Origin: a virus
IMG/VR virus record: IMGVR_UViG_3300024054_000036
Location: 1 to 36,482 of that record
DNA: 36,482 nucleotides
Direction: 5' to 3' (one strand)
How positions within the stretch are numbered: position 1 is the first letter of the stretch; every line of letters starts with the position of its first letter. Below the pieces are notes generated by a model. The model saw only the letters and a program-made list of their open reading frames with translations, made no database searches and was not told the DNA's origin. This document shows, piece by piece, positions 6,025 to 24,226 of this stretch. The translations under genes were made by a program, and so were the position numbers.

Positions 6025-6122
6025 GACGCATCACTTTATTTTCCTTGCATTTCCTCGCGCGTAGGAGTCCCATACCGACCTTACCGCGCCACCACAACAC
6101 CCAAAAAGTCGGAGCACAATCG

Positions 6123-7196
6123 GTGCATAAGACGCGCCTTACAGACATGGCGATCCGCGCCATGCAGCCGCCGGCCAAAGGCAACGTCGTTCTGTGGGAT
6201 GACGTGGTAACAGGATTCGGCGTCCGCTGTTCGCAGGGCGGCACCAAGAGCTACTTTCTCATGTATGGGCGAGAGCGCGCCCGCCATCAGATCGGGCGTG
6301 TCGGCATCATCTCGCTCCAGGACGCCCGGGCCGCCGCAAAAAAGTTCTTGGCGGAACGGACGCTCGGCAAGCGCGATGCCCCGGCGTTCAAGTTCCCCGA
6401 GGCGGTCACTCTATTTCTCGAATCGCAAGACCATCTGCGCCCCACGACGATGAGCGACTACAAACGCATCCTCAAAAGCCGATTCGAGAAACCGCTGCGG
6501 CATCTCACGCTCACAGAGGTGCAGACACACCACATCGCCACGATACTGGACAAGCTCAAAGACAAGCCCGGCGAGCGGAAATACGCGCATTCGGTCATCA
6601 GGCGGTTTTTCACATGGGCGCGCTCTCGTCGATATCTCGGGCATTCGCCGGTCGAAGGTCTTGAAGCGCCGCGTGCGCCGAAGAACCGCTCTCGTGTCCT
6701 ATCCGATGACGAACTTCGGAAGGTTTGGCAGGCCCTCGGAGACGACACCTATTCGGTCATCGTCAAGCTGCTCATTCTCACCGGCCAACGCTTGCGTGAG
6801 GTCGCCTACATCGAACAGAACTGGATAGACGCCGGTTATCTCACCATACCGGCAGAGCGCGCCAAGAACGGCAGAGAGCATCGGATCAAGGTTCCCGACC
6901 TTGCGCTCCCACTCCTCGCAAGGGTGCGGCCGTTCAAAGGGTGGAGCAAAGCCAAAGCGCGCCTCGACCGCTTATCGGGTGTTACCGGCTACCGCATTCA
7001 CGACCTGCGTAGAACGTATAGCACCACGATGCAGCGGCTCGGCGTTCGCCTTGAAGTCACTGAAAAACTGCTGAACCACGTCAGCGGAACACAGGCCGGC
7101 ATCGTCGGCGTCTATCAGAAATACGATTGGCAGAGCGAGTGCGATGACGCCGTTACCCGATACGAGACGTTCCTCAAAACCCTCTTAGCCGCCTGA
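6123..7196 (+). CDS. int: Tyrosine integrase, P4-like family
   Basis: This is a 357-residue protein when begun at the GTG at 6123, which has CGGAG upstream and leaves exactly the usual KTRLTDMAIRAMQPPAKGNV start; an ATG at 6045 would add 26 unrelated residues. Domains: an N-terminal arm-binding DUF4102-like part (WDDVVTGFGVR...TKSYFLMYGR), a core-binding helical domain (about residues 95-175), and a catalytic domain with the first Arg in TGQRLREV, the HDLRR box near residue 292, LLNHVSG, and the nucleophile Tyr in GVYQKYDW near residue 329. All catalytic positions appear intact. It lies beside the tRNA-Lys att core and upstream of an AlpA-like excisionase. Confidence 0.9.
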   Translation: MHKTRLTDMAIRAMQPPAKGNVVLWDDVVTGFGVRCSQGGTKSYFLMYGRERARHQIGRVGIISLQDARAAAKKFLAERTLGKRDAPAFKFPEAVTLFLESQDHLRPTTMSDYKRILKSRFEKPLRHLTLTEVQTHHIATILDKLKDKPGERKYAHSVIRRFFTWARSRRYLGHSPVEGLEAPRAPKNRSRVLSDDELRKVWQALGDDTYSVIVKLLILTGQRLREVAYIEQNWIDAGYLTIPAERAKNGREHRIKVPDLALPLLARVRPFKGWSKAKARLDRLSGVTGYRIHDLRRTYSTTMQRLGVRLEVTEKLLNHVSGTQAGIVGVYQKYDWQSECDDAVTRYETFLKTLLAA

Positions 7197-7815: not shown

Positions 7816-8538
7816 ATGAATCTCTTTACGTTTATGGGCGGTATGTTGAAGGTTCTTTTTGGAACCGCAAAAGTGACGTATCACGTCGGAAAGTTTGCCG
7901 CAGAATCAGCCAAGGACTCATACGAACGTCGTCAGGATATGAGGCAATTCAAGGCACAACTAAAAGACAAATCGCCGATGTTGGAAGATTTATTGACCCC
8001 TGTCGATTACCTCAAGCTCGCCAAACGCCATGCCGACAATGCATGGTACATGATAAAACAAGACTACAGTATCCACGGCCAAGAATCTTTCGACTTGCTC
8101 AAAGAGATATTGGACATCGGCGTGAACGCTTCCGCCGCATTCCATCGTGATCCTGATTGTACTTTCGAGGACAGCAAAGAGACTGTCACTGCAAAGGGAC
8201 TCCTTGCAGAGTCAAATTTCTTGCTCGGCTGTTATTACCACTACCAGACCTTTATTCAGTCAGCAGAGTGGAACCGCAAGCAGACGCACAAGGAGCATAT
8301 CAAAGGACTGAACGAAGCCCTCGCGCATATCAAGGACTCGCTCGACATCATGCCCCTCTCGGCTGCGTATCTGAAAGCGGCAGTGATTTACGAGGAATTA
8401 TACGACCGCGAAAATGCCGTGGCAATGCTCACCGCAGGCGTCAAAGCATTCCCAGATAACATTGACCTGCGCGAGGAATACAACCGCTTCCGCAACGACC
8501 GCACGGCGGGCGTCAAACCGCGCGGGCTGTTCGGATAG
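7816..8538 (+). CDS. Helical repeat (TPR-like) protein
   Basis: This 240-residue protein is started at the ATG at 7816, which places GGGGGC at ribosome-site distance; an ATG at 7804 is the alternative. The first 25 residues are hydrophobic (FTFMGGMLKVLFGTAKVTYHVG) and may bind the membrane or a partner. The rest is helical pairs, with SLDIMPLSAAYLKAAVIYEELYDRENAVAMLTAGVKAFPDNIDLREEY near the C-terminus reading as TPR repeats. Its stop overlaps the GTG start of the TraG-like gene, so the two are co-translated and probably work together. Confidence 0.6.
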   Translation: MNLFTFMGGMLKVLFGTAKVTYHVGKFAAESAKDSYERRQDMRQFKAQLKDKSPMLEDLLTPVDYLKLAKRHADNAWYMIKQDYSIHGQESFDLLKEILDIGVNASAAFHRDPDCTFEDSKETVTAKGLLAESNFLLGCYYHYQTFIQSAEWNRKQTHKEHIKGLNEALAHIKDSLDIMPLSAAYLKAAVIYEELYDRENAVAMLTAGVKAFPDNIDLREEYNRFRNDRTAGVKPRGLFG

Positions 8539-11500
8539 TGGACTGGATCGGGCACCTCAAACCCGACCCCAAAGCGCGTTTCGATAGAGCGAAAGCACTC
8601 TACGACGCCTATCCACTCACGATTCCCTACAACACGCGCCGTCACTCTATGGCGACGCTTAGCATTGCGTTCGGAGATGGCAACTTCGACCGGCGGATCG
8701 CCCGCATCCTGCGCCCTGTCATAGAGCAAATGTTCGAGCGCGAGGGGTACTTCAACCCCGAGGAACCCTACTACCACGACAACGGCCTCGACCTTGATTT
8801 TTTGTACCGCGAGCAGGAGGAGCACCTACAGCACCTCACCGACCACATTATGCCCGCCACGGAGTCGCTTGCACCTTTTCTCGGCTACATCGCGCGGTTC
8901 TTGAAAAGCGGCACCGGCACGCACGTCCCCCTCATAGAATTGCTCGACTGGCGGCGCGTCATTCTCAACATCACCCGTATGCTGCGCGAGGAGCCGCTGT
9001 TCCCGAAACACAGCACGATACTCACCAACAACATATTGCGCGTATCAAGCGTGACGGCCGAAACACTCACGCCGAAAACCAAAATCATCATGCCCACGGA
9101 CTACCAGGGCACACCCGCACAAGCAGTCCACGCATACCTACAGGGCACGCCATTCGAGGATTTGCTTATGACGTCTGTCCCATTCACGATTGACGATGAA
9201 GTGCGGTTTTCTCACGCATGGGTACTCGGCAGTTGTTTGCGCGGCGATACGAAAATCTACGACCCTATGTCGGACACGACAGAAACCATTGCCGCTCGTT
9301 GCGAGCGTGGTGTGGCGTTCCATGTATTCTCGCTCGATACAAACACGGGCGAGCTTGTGATAGCGAAAGCAAACGCGCCGACGCGGTTTACGCGGCAACC
9401 GATGATTCAGCTTTCTGACGGCACAAGGCACATCGTCGTAACGGCGAAACACCGTGTTTGGAATGGGCGGCGATACGTTTCCGTTGACCGGCTGCTTTCA
9501 TCGCGGCGTATCCATCTGCCGACCATTTCGGACAACGCCCTTTCAAGGTTGCGGCAAGATGCGCGGCGTTATTCGCAAACAGGCGCAGATTGCTTGGACG
9601 GTTATCGTTCCTCTTTCCATTTACGTGGTCTACAACCTCATGCGGCAACAGATAGCGGCCGAGTTTTTTCTCCATCACAAGACGGTGTTCTCGAACAAAG
9701 CTCTTTTTCTTGCCACGGCCGTCAGGGTGTCCTGGACGATAGACCAGCACATACCCGTCAGCATCAAGCCGACGGCCGCCTTTCCATGCGGGGTTTCGCT
9801 CTCCTATGGAGTAGTACGCTTTCCCGCGTACTTCGATGCCGTTCTGCTTTAGGAACTTTGATACCGTCTTATACGTTGTCCCTTCCGCTCGGCATATTTC
9901 ACCGATTGACTCGCCTTTTTTATATCGGCGCAGGATATTCTCAACCAACTCTTGCGACGAAAGGTCTCTGTTACCAATACCATGTAAACCAGCGTCACGA
10001 ATATAAACGCCTACTGTCTCCGTCTTGCATCCGACCTCAAGAGCTATTGTTTTATAATCGTAACCAAGTTTGTGACCCGTCAAAATACCAGCAATCTGCT
10101 TTTCCGTTAGTTTTTTTGTCATATACCGATACTACCACATGGACGGTACTACAGGCATCGGACGCTGTGTATTATGATTTTCACGTCCCGATCTATAACA
10201 ACTATCTTGCAGAGGGCCTCATTCATCATAATTCTGGTGCCGGCAAAAGCACACTCCTAGAGCGTCAATTCCTCGACGACATCGAGCGCCCCGACAAGCC
10301 CGCTATCATTGTCATTGATCCTAAAGGAACGATGATTGACCGTTTGTCGCGCCTCGCCGTCTTCCACCCCGAGCATGGCCGGCACCGCGACCGGCTCGTC
10401 ATACTCGACCCGCAGCGCGACCCACCGGCGCTCAACCTCTTTGACCCGTTCACCAAGCGATTCCATCTCTACAGCAACGAAGTGAAGCGGCAGGTTGAGA
10501 ACACGACCATCGGGCTGTTCGAGTACATCTTCGCCTCGAACGATATGCCGCTGACGCCGAAGCAGGGCACCTGCTTTTCCATGTGCGCCCGTCTGCTCTA
10601 TTCCATGTCCGGCAGCACGATGGAGACGTTCCTTGACCTCTTGCAGGACACCCGCACGTTCGACGAAAGCCCGTTCAAACAACATATCCTGCGCCAGCCG
10701 CCCATAGTGCAACGATTCTTCCGTGAAGCGTTCTACCACAAGTCCGAGTACGGCGAGACGAAGCGCCAGATCGCAAACCGCATCTACGACATGCTCGCCT
10801 CGCAGCAATTCGCCGCCATGTTCATGGCGAAGCGTAGAAAGTTCGATGCGTTCGATTGCCTACAGCAAGGCAAGATCGTGCTCGTTTCATCCCCCATCGC
10901 CTCGCTCGGCGTGGACGGCAGCACTATGTTTTCCCGCACTATCTGTTCGATGATTCTATCGGCAGCGTTCGAGCGCATCGCCCATCCGAAGCACACTTGG
11001 CGACCGGCGTTCTTGATGATCGACGAGGCGCAGGTCGTCATGGACGAAGTAGTGACGCAGCGGCTCTTGCAGATGGCACGGGAGTTCCGCGTCGGCGTCA
11101 CTCACGCTCACCAACAGATCAAAGGGCAGTTGTCGGAAGCCCTGTTCTCGACGCTCTCGGCGAACACGGCAATCAAATACTGCGCCACCCGCTCATACGA
11201 CGACGCGCAGAAGATGGCCCGCGACATGGGCCAATGCGACCCCTCATTCATCCTCGGACAAAAGGTGCATGACGGCCACGCGCACTTCGCGTGTCATGTA
11301 GACGGCAAGACCTCACACCCCGTCTCCATTGCCGTTCCTATCGGCGGCATATCGAAACAACCGCAGATGACGCGCGACGAGCACGAACGATTGTTGGAGC
11401 GCAATCGGCTGTTGGTAGCGGCAGAAGACGAGCCGATGCCGTCATTCTCTCCCGCCCCAGAAACACACAACGCCCCAGCAGAGGATAAAGGGGCGTCGCG

Positions 11501-11573
11501 CGTTCCGGTTTCCCAACCAGCCGAAGCTGATACGCCTAGTATACCAGACGACGATGACGGTTGCACATGGTAG
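8538..11573 (+). CDS. TraG/VirD4-like ATPase interrupted by an intein
   Basis: The precursor has 1011 residues and starts at a GTG overlapping the previous stop. Residues 1-232 and 566-1011 are the host protein (678 residues after splicing). Joining them rebuilds GSSGAGKST, a complete Walker A loop, followed by VIDPKG and LNLFDPF, typical of VirD4/TraG and related DNA-pumping ATPases, and a Walker B LMIDEAQ near residue 827. No membrane segments are seen, so it is a soluble coupling or packaging-type ATPase. Residues 233-565 are an intein placed between Ser232 and Ser566. The tail is Pro/Asp-rich. The neighbours (helical-repeat protein, replication-relaxation protein) match plasmid and ICE modules. 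Without splicing the P-loop would be destroyed. Confidence 0.85.
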   Translation: MDWIGHLKPDPKARFDRAKALYDAYPLTIPYNTRRHSMATLSIAFGDGNFDRRIARILRPVIEQMFEREGYFNPEEPYYHDNGLDLDFLYREQEEHLQHLTDHIMPATESLAPFLGYIARFLKSGTGTHVPLIELLDWRRVILNITRMLREEPLFPKHSTILTNNILRVSSVTAETLTPKTKIIMPTDYQGTPAQAVHAYLQGTPFEDLLMTSVPFTIDDEVRFSHAWVLGSCLRGDTKIYDPMSDTTETIAARCERGVAFHVFSLDTNTGELVIAKANAPTRFTRQPMIQLSDGTRHIVVTAKHRVWNGRRYVSVDRLLSSRRIHLPTISDNALSRLRQDARRYSQTGADCLDGYRSSFHLRGLQPHAATDSGRVFSPSQDGVLEQSSFSCHGRQGVLDDRPAHTRQHQADGRLSMRGFALLWSSTLSRVLRCRSALGTLIPSYTLSLPLGIFHRLTRLFYIGAGYSQPTLATKGLCYQYHVNQRHEYKRLLSPSCIRPQELLFYNRNQVCDPSKYQQSAFPLVFLSYTDTTTWTVLQASDAVYYDFHVPIYNNYLAEGLIHHNSGAGKSTLLERQFLDDIERPDKPAIIVIDPKGTMIDRLSRLAVFHPEHGRHRDRLVILDPQRDPPALNLFDPFTKRFHLYSNEVKRQVENTTIGLFEYIFASNDMPLTPKQGTCFSMCARLLYSMSGSTMETFLDLLQDTRTFDESPFKQHILRQPPIVQRFFREAFYHKSEYGETKRQIANRIYDMLASQQFAAMFMAKRRKFDAFDCLQQGKIVLVSSPIASLGVDGSTMFSRTICSMILSAAFERIAHPKHTWRPAFLMIDEAQVVMDEVVTQRLLQMAREFRVGVTHAHQQIKGQLSEALFSTLSANTAIKYCATRSYDDAQKMARDMGQCDPSFILGQKVHDGHAHFACHVDGKTSHPVSIAVPIGGISKQPQMTRDEHERLLERNRLLVAAEDEPMPSFSPAPETHNAPAEDKGASRVPVSQPAEADTPSIPDDDDGCTW
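9388..10122 (-). CDS. HNH homing endonuclease encoded antisense inside the intein
   Basis: The protein has 244 residues. The N-terminal half carries two helix-turn-helix modules (about residues 6-45 and 55-98, the second with GESIGEICRAEGTTYKTVSKFLK). The HNH domain spans about 120-185: EHRLVMEKKLGR, then LLPHEVVDHVNGKRNDNRPSNLRLF, with all conserved His/Asn positions. A Cys pair (CALC) lies near the end. The gene fills the space between the intein splicing blocks, and its last 40 codons overlap block B on the other strand. An extended -10 lies six bases before its ATG, giving independent expression. It probably cuts intein-less copies of the ATPase gene. Confidence 0.85.
   Translation of the reverse strand: MTKKLTEKQIAGILTGHKLGYDYKTIALEVGCKTETVGVYIRDAGLHGIGNRDLSSQELVENILRRYKKGESIGEICRAEGTTYKTVSKFLKQNGIEVRGKAYYSIGERNPAWKGGRRLDADGYVLVYRPGHPDGRGKKKSFVREHRLVMEKKLGRYLLPHEVVDHVNGKRNDNRPSNLRLFANNAAHLAATLKGRCPKWSADGYAAMKAAGQRKRIAAHSKHGVSPLRRCALCRQKAESSVAA
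10129..10137 (-). promoter_or_regulatory. Extended -10 for the antisense HNH gene (TGG-TAGTAT-N6-ATG)
   Basis: On the minus strand TGGTAGTAT ends exactly six bases before the ATG at 10122, matching the leaderless pattern of other genes here. It lies at the edge of the codons of the intein C-terminal splicing domain. Confidence 0.5.
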
Positions 11574-11606
11574 TGCATAGCAACCGTTACGGCACCGCCA
11601 TGCGCT

Positions 11607-11621
11607 TGGTATCATGTGTGT
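11607..11621 (+). promoter_or_regulatory. Leaderless-type extended -10 (TGG-TATCAT-N6-ATG)
   Basis: TATCAT at 11610-11615 with TGG before it is followed by six bases and the ATG at 11622. No Shine-Dalgarno site is present. Confidence 0.55.
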
Positions 11622-12590
11622 ATGGAAACTGTAGAAATAGCAGCGAAGAAGAAACGCGCATCTCGGCTCTCGCGCAAGAGCGATGCACGACACATCGTCA
11701 CTCACCGGCAGTTGACACACCTTGAAAAAGACGTGCTCAAGTACGCCGCGCGCTTCCCGTTCATCACGAACAACCATCTCGCACACGCGCTCGGCCGCCA
11801 GAAACTCCGCCGCGTCGTCCAGACGCTCAAGGACGAGCGCAACGACTACATGGACTTGTGCAAGTACCAGCGCGACCATTTCTTCCAGCAATTTATGAAC
11901 GCCGAGCTTGCGTACGGCGTGACTGCAAAGACCCGCGAGATGCTCGCCGACAAGGGCTATTTTGTCCACACAAACGAGTTCTCCGGCTCGTACTTCTACC
12001 ACACGCTCTTTTCGGTTCAGCTGCGTTCCTCGTTCGACATAGCCGCCGCACAAATCGAGGACGTGGACATAATCTCATGGCACGAGATAGCGAAAGACCC
12101 GCGCGTATCCCGCGCCGCTTTAGAGGGCGACCGACCAAACCATTTCAAGATTCCTCCGAACGTGCGGACGCCGAACGGCGCGCACTCGCTCATTCCCGAC
12201 TGCTACCCGTTCATCGTAAAATCAAACAGCAAAGCATTCCCGTTCCTCGGGATAGAAGCCGACATGGGCAGCGAATCTGTATCGGTGACCATCCGCTCGA
12301 AACTCATCTACTACTCCCACATCCTACAGAACGACCTGCACAAGACACTGTACGGGTTCCCGAAAGCGTATGTCGCGTTCTTCGCCAAATCGAAGCCCCG
12401 CATGATGAACATGCTGGCGGAAGCAGAAAAAACAGTGCCGGAAAAACTGCGGCCGTACTTCCTGTTCATGCACACGATTGCGCCCGGTGACCCTGAAGAT
12501 AACCCGCTCGCAACAGGGTATGCAGTGACCGATGAATATCTGCGCCCCGGCCACAAGCCGCTGTGTTTGTATGAAGAAAGTGCCGGCTAA
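11622..12590 (+). CDS. Replication-relaxation family protein
   Basis: This 322-residue protein starts at the ATG at 11622, fixed by the leaderless promoter. An N-terminal winged-helix part (HIVTHRQLTHLEKDVLKYAARFPFITNNHLAHAL...RRVVQTLKDE, about residues 22-75) is followed by the longer domain typical of Replic_Relax proteins: LTAKTREMLADKGY-type segment, then PDCYPFIVKSNSKAFPFLGIEADMG, where an acidic residue ends a strand as in PD-(D/E)xK-like cores, and YSHIL...YGFPKAYVAFFA. These proteins occur beside TraG-like ATPases on plasmids and integrative elements and have been linked to replication initiation. A role in replication or mobilisation of this element is inferred. Confidence 0.75.
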   Translation: METVEIAAKKKRASRLSRKSDARHIVTHRQLTHLEKDVLKYAARFPFITNNHLAHALGRQKLRRVVQTLKDERNDYMDLCKYQRDHFFQQFMNAELAYGVTAKTREMLADKGYFVHTNEFSGSYFYHTLFSVQLRSSFDIAAAQIEDVDIISWHEIAKDPRVSRAALEGDRPNHFKIPPNVRTPNGAHSLIPDCYPFIVKSNSKAFPFLGIEADMGSESVSVTIRSKLIYYSHILQNDLHKTLYGFPKAYVAFFAKSKPRMMNMLAEAEKTVPEKLRPYFLFMHTIAPGDPEDNPLATGYAVTDEYLRPGHKPLCLYEESAG

Positions 12591-16835: not shown

Positions 16836-17123
16836 ATGGCGAAAGGTGACGGACGAGGCGGCGCACGCAAAGGCGCAGGGAAGCCAAAAGGATACAAAGC
16901 ACCTCACACGCTTGAGGCAATGGCCACAAGAGCCGCCTTTATAAAAAAGGTGGAAGAAAATCTTGATAACATATTCGCCTCGCTCCTTACCGAAGCGAAA
17001 AAAGGCAACGTCCAGGCCATCAAAGAATTACTTGATCGCGCATGGGGCAAACCACCGCAAGCACTCACTGACCCGAACGGCGGCTCTCTCAAGATCGCGG
17101 CTGTCGCCATCTCTCTCGAATGA
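16836..17123 (+). CDS. Terminase small subunit-like protein
   Basis: This 95-residue protein begins with GDGRGGARKGAGKPKGYKAPHTLEAMA, the Gly/Lys-rich GGARKGAGRP-type start of many phage packaging proteins, followed by helices (RAAFIKKVEENLDNIFASLLTEAKKGNVQAIKELLDRAWGKPPQ) as in small terminase or terminase-associated proteins. It is shorter than typical TerS. An ATGA overlap couples it to the large subunit. Confidence 0.65.
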   Translation: MAKGDGRGGARKGAGKPKGYKAPHTLEAMATRAAFIKKVEENLDNIFASLLTEAKKGNVQAIKELLDRAWGKPPQALTDPNGGSLKIAAVAISLE

Positions 17124-18460
17124 AACTGGAGATTGCCGCAAGCAAGGCATACGAGCGTCTTTGGAAAAGCGACAAACGCTACATCATCCTCATGGGCGGT
17201 CGTGCAGCAGGACGCTCCTACGCCGCTTCGCAGCACGCCCTCGCGCACCTCACGCAGACAAAGACACCATTCCGTGCTGCGCTTATGCGTCTCGTCCACG
17301 CGGACATCCGCAATTCGAGCTGGCAGGAGCTTCAAGACCGTATCGCCCAGTACGATCTCTACGGTGTCATCTCGTCTTCCGACAGCATGATGACCACCGA
17401 ACATGGCTTGCAGAGCATCAACGCCGTCGGCTTCCACAAATCGAGCGGCGACCGATCCGCAAAGCTCAAATCGCTCGCAGGATTCACGCACGCCTACGTC
17501 GAAGAAGGCGAAGAGATAGGGCAACACGACTTCCGGCAACTCGACGACTCGTTACGCGCTGAAAAGTCGCAAGTCGTCATAACGATGAACACGCCTTCAG
17601 TTTCGCACTGGATGGTGCAGCGGTGGTTCGATACGTCGCAGGTCGAAGGGTTGCCGGGCTTCTACACCCTATCTTTGAAGCCAAGCGTCCAAGACGTTGA
17701 GTTCATCTTCACGACGCACGAGCACAACACACATCTCCCCGAAGACGTGCACCGACGCTATGAGGCTTACAAACAGACAAACCCCGCCTATTACTGGCAG
17801 ATGGTACGCGGCCTGTGTCCCGAGGTGACACTCGGCAAGATATTCTCCGACTGGCGCGTCATCGACACCATTCCACATGAAGCACGTCTTTTGGGCTATG
17901 GGCTCGACTTCGGCTATTTCCCAGACCCTGACGCCATCTTAGCTGTCTACTACTACGACGGCGGCTACATTCTCGACGAAAAGCTCTACCAGACCGAGAA
18001 CAGCCCCGAACGGCTCATAGCGACATGCAGCGGACTGCCGAAAGCGCCATTCATCTGTGATACGAATGAACCGCGCATGATCGCTTCGCTGCGTTCCGGC
18101 GGCATCTCGATAATCGAAACCGAAAAAGGAAAGAGCAGTGTGGATTACGGCATCAAGCACATGCAGGGCCTCCGCATCTCCTACACCCGCCGCTCTGAAA
18201 ATATCGACCGCGAATACAAGAATTACGCGTGGCTCATCAAGAAGCTCGCCGATGACAAATACGAGAACATGCGCGTGCCTGATCCGCAATGTGCCGACCA
18301 CCTCATGTCAGCAGCACGCTACTTCCTCACAAGGATGGTGCGCCCGAAGACCGAGAGCGACACATTCCGCACCTCCGCAGCATCACACGCGGCGAGCGCG
18401 GCAGCAATCAAGCATCGCGTCCTCAAAGAGCACAAGGTATCCCCAAGCAGAGCCGTTTGA
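17120..18460 (+). CDS. terL: Terminase large subunit
   Basis: The protein has 446 residues, the normal length for Terminase_3/PBSX-like enzymes. The ATPase domain has Walker A GGRAAGRS (residues 26-33), where the usual Lys is Arg, and a Walker B/catalytic segment AYVEEGEEI (about 125-133). The nuclease domain is RNase H-like with Asp263 (GYGLDFG), Asp314 (FICDTNEP) and Asp393 (CADHLMSAARYF). It powers genome packaging and cuts concatemers. It is coupled to the small subunit and followed by the portal gene. Confidence 0.9.
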   Translation: MKLEIAASKAYERLWKSDKRYIILMGGRAAGRSYAASQHALAHLTQTKTPFRAALMRLVHADIRNSSWQELQDRIAQYDLYGVISSSDSMMTTEHGLQSINAVGFHKSSGDRSAKLKSLAGFTHAYVEEGEEIGQHDFRQLDDSLRAEKSQVVITMNTPSVSHWMVQRWFDTSQVEGLPGFYTLSLKPSVQDVEFIFTTHEHNTHLPEDVHRRYEAYKQTNPAYYWQMVRGLCPEVTLGKIFSDWRVIDTIPHEARLLGYGLDFGYFPDPDAILAVYYYDGGYILDEKLYQTENSPERLIATCSGLPKAPFICDTNEPRMIASLRSGGISIIETEKGKSSVDYGIKHMQGLRISYTRRSENIDREYKNYAWLIKKLADDKYENMRVPDPQCADHLMSAARYFLTRMVRPKTESDTFRTSAASHAASAAAIKHRVLKEHKVSPSRAV

Positions 18461-23476: not shown

Positions 23477-24226
23477 ATGCAGTATAACGAAACCACAAAC
23501 AAATCAGGACTCATGCAAGCGTGTGAGTTTTGGTGTGGTTTCCCCGACACCGGCATCACCGGCGACACGTTCTTGAAGCAGCAGTTTACCGTGCGCCTCA
23601 ACGCGGGTTTCGAGATGATACTGCCCTCGCTTCTCTCGCGCTCGAAGGCCGTCAAGTTCGACGACCCGAACAACGCAGACCAACCCGTAGGCACATTCAA
23701 CATTGTCAGCGGGACGCACGACTACGCGCTCACTGAAGACGATAACGGCCTCGATATCCTCAACGTGGTGTCGCTTGCTATTCTCCCGACTTCGTCAGCG
23801 ACCGAATATGAGACATTGACCCAGTTGACCCTAGACGACCCGCGCGCGCAGCGTGTTATGTCTCCCAACCCGTCAGACGTTGGCGTTCCGACTCACTGGA
23901 TGAAGCGCGGAAACACGGTCTACCTGTACCCGCAGCCCAATTACGCTGCCACCGCAGGCGTCAAAATCGCTTTCGAGCGCGAGCAGACGTACTTCACGAC
24001 AAGCGACACGACGAGAGAGCCGGGTATCCCAAAACCATTCCACGAGCTTCTTGCGCTCTATGCCTCGTATGACTGGATACTCGTCAACAAGAGCGACAAT
24101 GCAGTGCTCATTTCACGCGTCGAGGCGCGGATCGCGCGAAAGGAACGTGACCTCGGCATCCTCAACGACAAACGGCACCCGACGCGCAAACGCATCGCGG
24201 CAGCTGCTTGTACGAGGAGCAGATGA
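23477..24226 (+). CDS. Head-tail adaptor / tail tubular protein A-like
   Basis: This 249-residue protein starts in a TAG-CGT-ATG junction. The strand-rich middle with VPTHWMKRGNTVYLYPQPNY (about residues 138-157) is typical of the P22 gp4 and T7 gp11-like adaptor family, where a beta domain precedes helices; PGIPKPFHELLALYASYDWIL (about 182-202) is the conserved helical end. These proteins form a ring under the portal in short-tailed phages. The tail is basic. The call is good at family level. Confidence 0.7.
   Translation: MQYNETTNKSGLMQACEFWCGFPDTGITGDTFLKQQFTVRLNAGFEMILPSLLSRSKAVKFDDPNNADQPVGTFNIVSGTHDYALTEDDNGLDILNVVSLAILPTSSATEYETLTQLTLDDPRAQRVMSPNPSDVGVPTHWMKRGNTVYLYPQPNYAATAGVKIAFEREQTYFTTSDTTREPGIPKPFHELLALYASYDWILVNKSDNAVLISRVEARIARKERDLGILNDKRHPTRKRIAAAACTRSR

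Follow-up and report, generated by a model that had tools for sequence, protein, structure and literature searches.

How can an intein that interrupts the ATP-binding loop of a phage ATPase be mobile when its endonuclease is encoded on the opposite strand? The question is raised by a 36,482-nucleotide stretch of DNA (hereafter the window), positions 1 to 36,482 of the IMG/VR virus record IMGVR_UViG_3300024054_000036, which derives from a tailed phage. An open reading frame (ORF) of 1011 codons with a GTG start (plus strand, 8538-11573) encodes the precursor of a TraG-like P-loop ATPase, and an ORF of 244 codons (10122-9388) runs antisense within it, both exactly as described in an earlier note on this DNA. 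The features of the locus and of its phage neighbourhood are collected in Table 1. We consider it very likely that the window contains a mobile intein with its homing endonuclease encoded on the opposite strand.

Table 1. Positions of the intein locus and of other phage genes in the window
Feature	Position	Strand	Evidence
Tyrosine integrase	6045-7196		
N-extein of TraG-like ATPase, ends ...HAWVLGS (first Walker A residues)	8538-9233	+	ORF; homologues contiguous over junction
Intein, 333 aa, Cys1 ... His332-Asn333	9234-10232	+	ORF/translation; family-invariant C1, H73, D315, N333
Hint N-terminal splicing region, residues 1-100, block B TAKH at 9441-9452	9234-9533	+	AlphaFold pLDDT 91-98 to residue 90, 75 in 91-100; predicted Hint fold
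Antisense HNH homing endonuclease gene, 244 aa; C-terminal tail overlaps Hint-N coding sequence including block B	9388-10122	-	ORF, Pfam, PHROG, relatives, model
Sense reading of HNH gene, open, predicted disordered loop, about residues 101-295	9534-10118	+	pLDDT 33-54, almost no secondary structure; 0 stops
HNH catalytic region EHRLVME...VVDHVNG..N..SNLRLF	9577-9690	-	Invariant columns E145, H146, R147, H166, N174, N178 in 24-26 relatives
Two helix-turn-helix units of HNH protein	9844-10104	-	Pfam HTH_38/HTH_58; model helices 7-43 and 57-93
Hint C-terminal splicing region, residues 296-333, blocks F and G	10119-10232	+	pLDDT 94-98 from residue 301; weak PF14890 and TIGR01443 matches
C-extein, SGAGKST... 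and remaining TraG-like P-loop ATPase	10233-11573	+	35% / 30% identity to intein-free plasmid homologues
Terminase large subunit (Terminase_3)	17120-18460		
SU10-type adaptor	23477-24226		

The insertion point was established by comparison with intein-free homologues of the ATPase, which are plasmid-encoded and come from Sulfitobacter (WP_259956302, 30% identity) and Methylomagnum (pRS11DPr5, 35%). Protein alignments with both are gap-free over the window junction, at ...GSGHGKT..., and splicing would therefore restore the Walker A motif GSSGAGKS, which bears out the site that the earlier note had proposed. The ATPase gene is followed by a replication-relaxation protein gene (window 8538-12590), a pair shared with a Sulfitobacter plasmid (L005) and present here within a phage genome that has an integrase and a terminase. 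The window's own terminase has an atypical P-loop, GGRAAGRS, and is without an intein; relatives of the element reside mostly inside terminases. When either the window ATPase or its intein was used as the IMG/VR query, the sole match was a single contig, 100% identical, so that the window offers no variants for comparison.

The intein comprises precursor residues 233-565, from a Cys codon at 9234 to an Asn codon at 10230, with Ser at position +1. It starts with CLRGDTKIYDP, has VVTAKHRVW as block B, in which the TAKH His is intein residue 73, and ends in VYYDFHVPIYNNYLAEGLIHHN, followed by SGAGKST. All the class 1 splicing residues are present (C1, TAKH with H73, HHN and Ser+1), and C1, H73, D315 and N333 are invariant among 50 related inteins. 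Recognition of the intein depended on family profiles, single-sequence searches being too weak: Pfam reported only a C-terminal Intein_splicing match below the cut-off (E 0.006), and a single-sequence PDB search with the intein returned mostly leucine-rich-repeat noise. The family profile, in contrast, matches solved inteins (DnaB intein 1MI8, E 6e-24), and an AlphaFold model, built with an alignment of the 50 related inteins, matches the Mtu RecA intein with a Z score of 20.5 at 1.7 Å over 137 residues. Thus the profile check suggested earlier gave a weak result with the single sequence and a strong one with the family profile and the model, both of which agree with the assignment to Hint-type inteins that had been made from the splicing signals. 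The pLDDT exceeds 90 at residues 1-90 and 301-333 and is mostly below 50 in the loop between them, such that the intein is predicted to be a Hint fold around a disordered, antisense-derived loop of about 190 residues. No endonuclease domain was found by Pfam in this sense loop; its predicted disorder likewise agrees with the earlier view that the canonical, in-frame endonuclease is missing from the sense frame.

The antisense protein matches PHROG 10730 (E 4e-28) and Pfam HNH_3 (4e-9), and these matches, together with HTH_38/HTH_58 and the invariant residues, uphold its description as an intact HNH protein with two helix-turn-helix units. Its AlphaFold model has a mean pLDDT of 87; in a Foldseek search with this model helix-turn-helix proteins ranked first and I-HmuI was a weak match (E 0.5), while as a plasmid query the window HNH found distant matches only. 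With respect to its expression, a promoter scan of the window gave a count of promoter-like sites not above chance, and there is no clear Shine-Dalgarno sequence at the window HNH start; across the class an SD-like sequence precedes the start of 29 of 68 HNHs, against 16 expected. It could be argued that the element is an inactive remnant, in which the HNH is dead though the intein splices, or in which splicing is gone and the ATPase lost, given that homing endonucleases often decay and that related inteins contain truncated or residual antisense HNHs. The window HNH, however, retains the family-invariant residues and the intein retains C1, H73, H332, N333 and Ser+1, and we regard a remnant as unlikely.

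The arrangement is not peculiar to this locus. A search of IMG/VR with the window HNH yielded 432 relatives, and nearly all of the best 80 are antisense within one long ORF. After a second search had been added and duplicates removed, the closest HNH relatives in IMG/VR comprised 111 distinct nested antisense copies, equivalent to 68 clusters at 70% identity, and 29 other relatives, nearly all free-standing HNHs, which served as controls. Inteins make up 67 of the 68 nested clusters, mostly in phage terminases and nearly all splitting Walker A, the exception being a methylase (L111) without recognisable Hint ends. In 57 spanning ORFs Pfam identified Intein_splicing (47 ORFs, best 2.8e-15), Terminase_6N (19) and Terminase_3 (6), with AAA_24, helicase, primase, SMC, TraG-D or MCM domains as single cases. 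The insertion point, in 56 inteins checked at both ends, follows Walker A residue 4 in 48, residue 7 in two, residue 3 in one and residue 2 in two, among them the window; the other three lack a strict Walker A match, two of them resembling degenerate P-loops (SCKT, TQKT) and one ending in TGKS. The layout recurs, therefore, in at least 67 divergent phage lineages and represents an unrecognised class of mobile element rather than a one-off. Thus the layout for which the earlier note knew of no described example is real, but it is not singular, belonging to a widespread class in which the antisense frame is always the same. In a tree of the HNH proteins the nested copies cluster together, and the tree supports neither one origin nor several. 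One further ORF (L211) has two Hint-N matches, and possibly represents two inteins in one ATPase.

Every nested copy that was examined over the whole HNH ORF uses this one antisense frame, with no stops, in which sense codon position 1 lies opposite HNH position 1, sense 2 opposite HNH 3 and sense 3 opposite HNH 2. In the same copies the remaining two frames nearly always contain stops, up to 21. Permutation of the codons predicts 301 sense stops in the 67 intein clusters, versus 0 seen, and 154 in the 29 control HNHs, versus 140 seen; of 22 cellular HNH relatives L111 alone is open in the shared frame. In the window itself, recoding the HNH with synonymous codons would be expected to introduce about 4-6 sense stops, versus the 0 seen, and the fraction of recoding trials with a stop-free sense frame was 5e-5 with window codon usage and 0.8% with permutation of the gene's own codons. 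The proposal that the sense frame is kept open therefore holds beyond chance, both by recoding of the window and by the stop count across the clusters. These data also bear on the possibility that the gene is really fractured, in which case sense translation would stop or be unproductive and the halves, separated by a free-standing HNH gene, would act in trans as a split intein. Such a form is present in one relative (L202/L148), and L197 may be a second, but the split layout was not found in the window, where the sense frame is open over all 1011 codons; with no sense stop there or in the 66 other clusters, against the 301 expected, a fractured gene is very unlikely here. As the sense frame is open, splicing is expected to occur in cis.

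Constraint in the two frames, a comparison that the earlier note had proposed, was assessed in 20 independent close pairs. Position 3 of the HNH codons takes 523 of the 846 substitutions, and 61% of substitutions are synonymous in the HNH, against 26% expected under neutrality, whereas 17% are synonymous in the sense frame, against 29% expected; a sense stop would arise from 4.3% of the HNH-synonymous changes. This pattern indicates that the HNH is under purifying selection and that nothing more than an open frame is required of the sense loop, its peptide not being conserved. The opposite interpretation takes the antisense HNH ORF for a by-product of coding bias and assigns the function to the sense loop, for instance as a cryptic endonuclease or a regulatory domain. 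Sense and antisense ORFs do often coexist in GC-rich DNA, and at L029/L150, a free-standing HNH in such DNA, both strands are open. Against this, HNH profiles recognise the antisense protein at 4e-28, the substitutions conserve the HNH and not the sense reading, the sense loop is predicted to be disordered and mini-inteins without the loop exist; a by-product is thus extremely improbable.

The layout is also present in the terminase large subunit of nine isolated phages: Pseudoalteromonas phage PHS3, the Pectobacterium phages Ymer, Abuela, Taid, Pappous, Sabo, Koroua and Amona, and Dickeya phage Setonix. Pseudoalteromonas phage AL provides the empty-site partner of PHS3, its TerL gene lacking exactly 900 bp, and the limits of the PHS3 insertion are the Cys codon and the Asn codon. 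The exteins of the two phages are 94.9% identical in DNA (404/409 residues in protein), and in the first 308 bp there are two differences only, both synonymous and both directly at the insertion edge, a pattern that fits homing with co-conversion. This presence/absence pair is likewise consistent with cleavage of the intein-free allele by the HNH at the insertion site. Since the terminase is essential in tailed phages, the terminase inteins of these isolates very probably splice. The two-strand layout also explains the misannotation of such genes: because of its intein, the PHS3 terminase (KX912252; L095 1661-3787) is annotated in GenBank as truncated, and the Pectobacterium phage terminases (L093 1586-3850, L094 1086-3350) appear there as 'hypothetical protein'. 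Other queries of isolate phages returned none with the L147 intein and a single match with a mini-intein, the DnaB helicase intein of Planktothrix phage PaV-LD.

A search with the splicing domain, independent of the HNH, identified 74 complete P-loop inteins with both ends, of which 53 have an antisense HNH, 21 have none and 0 have a sense HNH, although this survey was ranked by similarity to one member and its proportions are not population frequencies. Lengths are 130-159 aa for the HNH-less mini-inteins and 269-396 aa for the full forms. Roughly eight of the 53 are short, at 142-192 aa, and have a truncated or residual antisense HNH. In an AAA ATPase gene (L202 1-2007 and L148, both on contig IMGVR_UViG_3300049489_001113) the sense frame is interrupted: a 146-aa IntN ends at a stop and is followed by an antisense HNH, which has its own Shine-Dalgarno sequence, and by a 37-aa IntC, also with its own, which starts at an ATG behind AAAGAGGT. 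The sister of this copy in the HNH tree is the nested L142 (100/78), and the locus is probably a natural split intein of the antisense-HNH family. A possible second split-intein locus is L197 (1-773), where an HNH is antisense to the Hint-N end, the sense frame is broken and the contig ends. From the one complete case it appears that the continuous form can be converted to a natural split intein, and the HNH-less minis, the HNH remnants and the fractured locus together suggest a life cycle, the mini-inteins being either ancestral or forms that lost the HNH. Most copies appear to be inherited as a unit of intein and antisense HNH. The invasion of a mini-intein by a free-standing HNH gene, as first put forward for the window, thus describes an origin that may be ancient.

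We propose the following model for the window. The whole gene would be translated in the sense direction to give the 1011-aa precursor, in which the intein ends (residues 1-100 and 296-333) would fold as the Hint domain, while the peptide read in the sense direction from the HNH gene would form a disordered loop at the position where other inteins hold an in-frame endonuclease domain. The Hint domain would splice in cis. The HNH enzyme would be produced separately, from the antisense strand, and would presumably cut the DNA of intein-free P-loops, repair then copying the intein and the HNH gene into the break. With homing and splicing divided in this way, selection would preserve the HNH codons and the Hint ends and keep sense stops out, with no hold on the amino acids of the loop. 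Because the loop would only have to stay open, a stop together with an internal start could generate a natural split intein, as at L202, and the class would thus be a source of split inteins. The broader view, that this is a large undescribed class of inteins with the two functions on opposite strands in one fixed frame, which moves by way of Walker A coding DNA between non-homologous P-loop ATPases (terminases and DnaB-like, TraG-like, AAA, SMC-like and MCM-like proteins) and gives rise to split inteins, is to our mind evenly poised.

Inteins are thought to have gained mobility by the in-frame fusion of an endonuclease into the splicing domain. In the elements described here the two jobs are on separate strands, and selection holds the sense frame stop-free through an entire foreign gene, a clean natural example of antisense double coding: the sequence matters on one strand, whereas the other is required only to be open. 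The origin of split inteins and of fractured genes becomes testable, and dozens of new P-loop inteins, including the HNH-less minis and the 37-aa IntC, are possible tools. A search of the open full-text literature, which excludes most subscription journals and bioRxiv, turned up no intein with an endonuclease encoded antisense within it.

Fractured genes, in which a free-standing endonuclease gene separates the two halves of a split intein, were reportedly described by Dassa et al. in 2009. They resemble the elements studied here in the separate endonuclease gene between Hint halves, but differ in that the sense frame here is open, L202 being the fractured state within the antisense-HNH family. 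Canonical mobile inteins with an in-frame LAGLIDADG or HNH endonuclease, including LAGLIDADG inteins in the P-loop of mycobacteriophage terminases (PMC5050341), share the Hint domain, the P-loop insertion and the endonuclease coding sequence between blocks B and F; in these the endonuclease is fused in frame, whereas here it is on the opposite strand and the sense loop is without one. In the ShiLan domain an HNH is hidden in another frame of an insertion in a phage methylase, in which no splicing domain was found (PMC11855218). As in the window, the HNH, which is related in sequence to that of the window, is concealed in a host-gene insertion that is itself open; in ShiLan, however, it is on the same strand, while here an antisense HNH is combined with a complete Hint domain. 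Two bacterial loci resemble this insertion: in a Nitrospira MAG (L111, VGWY01000134.1) an HNH is antisense, in the same open frame, inside a 989-aa DNA methylase ORF, as an antisense counterpart of the ShiLan insertion, and in a Cloacimonadota MAG (L107 292-2458, SOKM01000278.1) an HNH occupies another sense frame of a DNA methylase ORF, in a ShiLan-like manner. Group I introns also contain antisense homing endonuclease genes, which are expressed and active (PMC9548176), and are thus likewise self-splicing elements with an endonuclease gene on the opposite strand. RNA splicing, however, needs no open sense frame, whereas an intein does.
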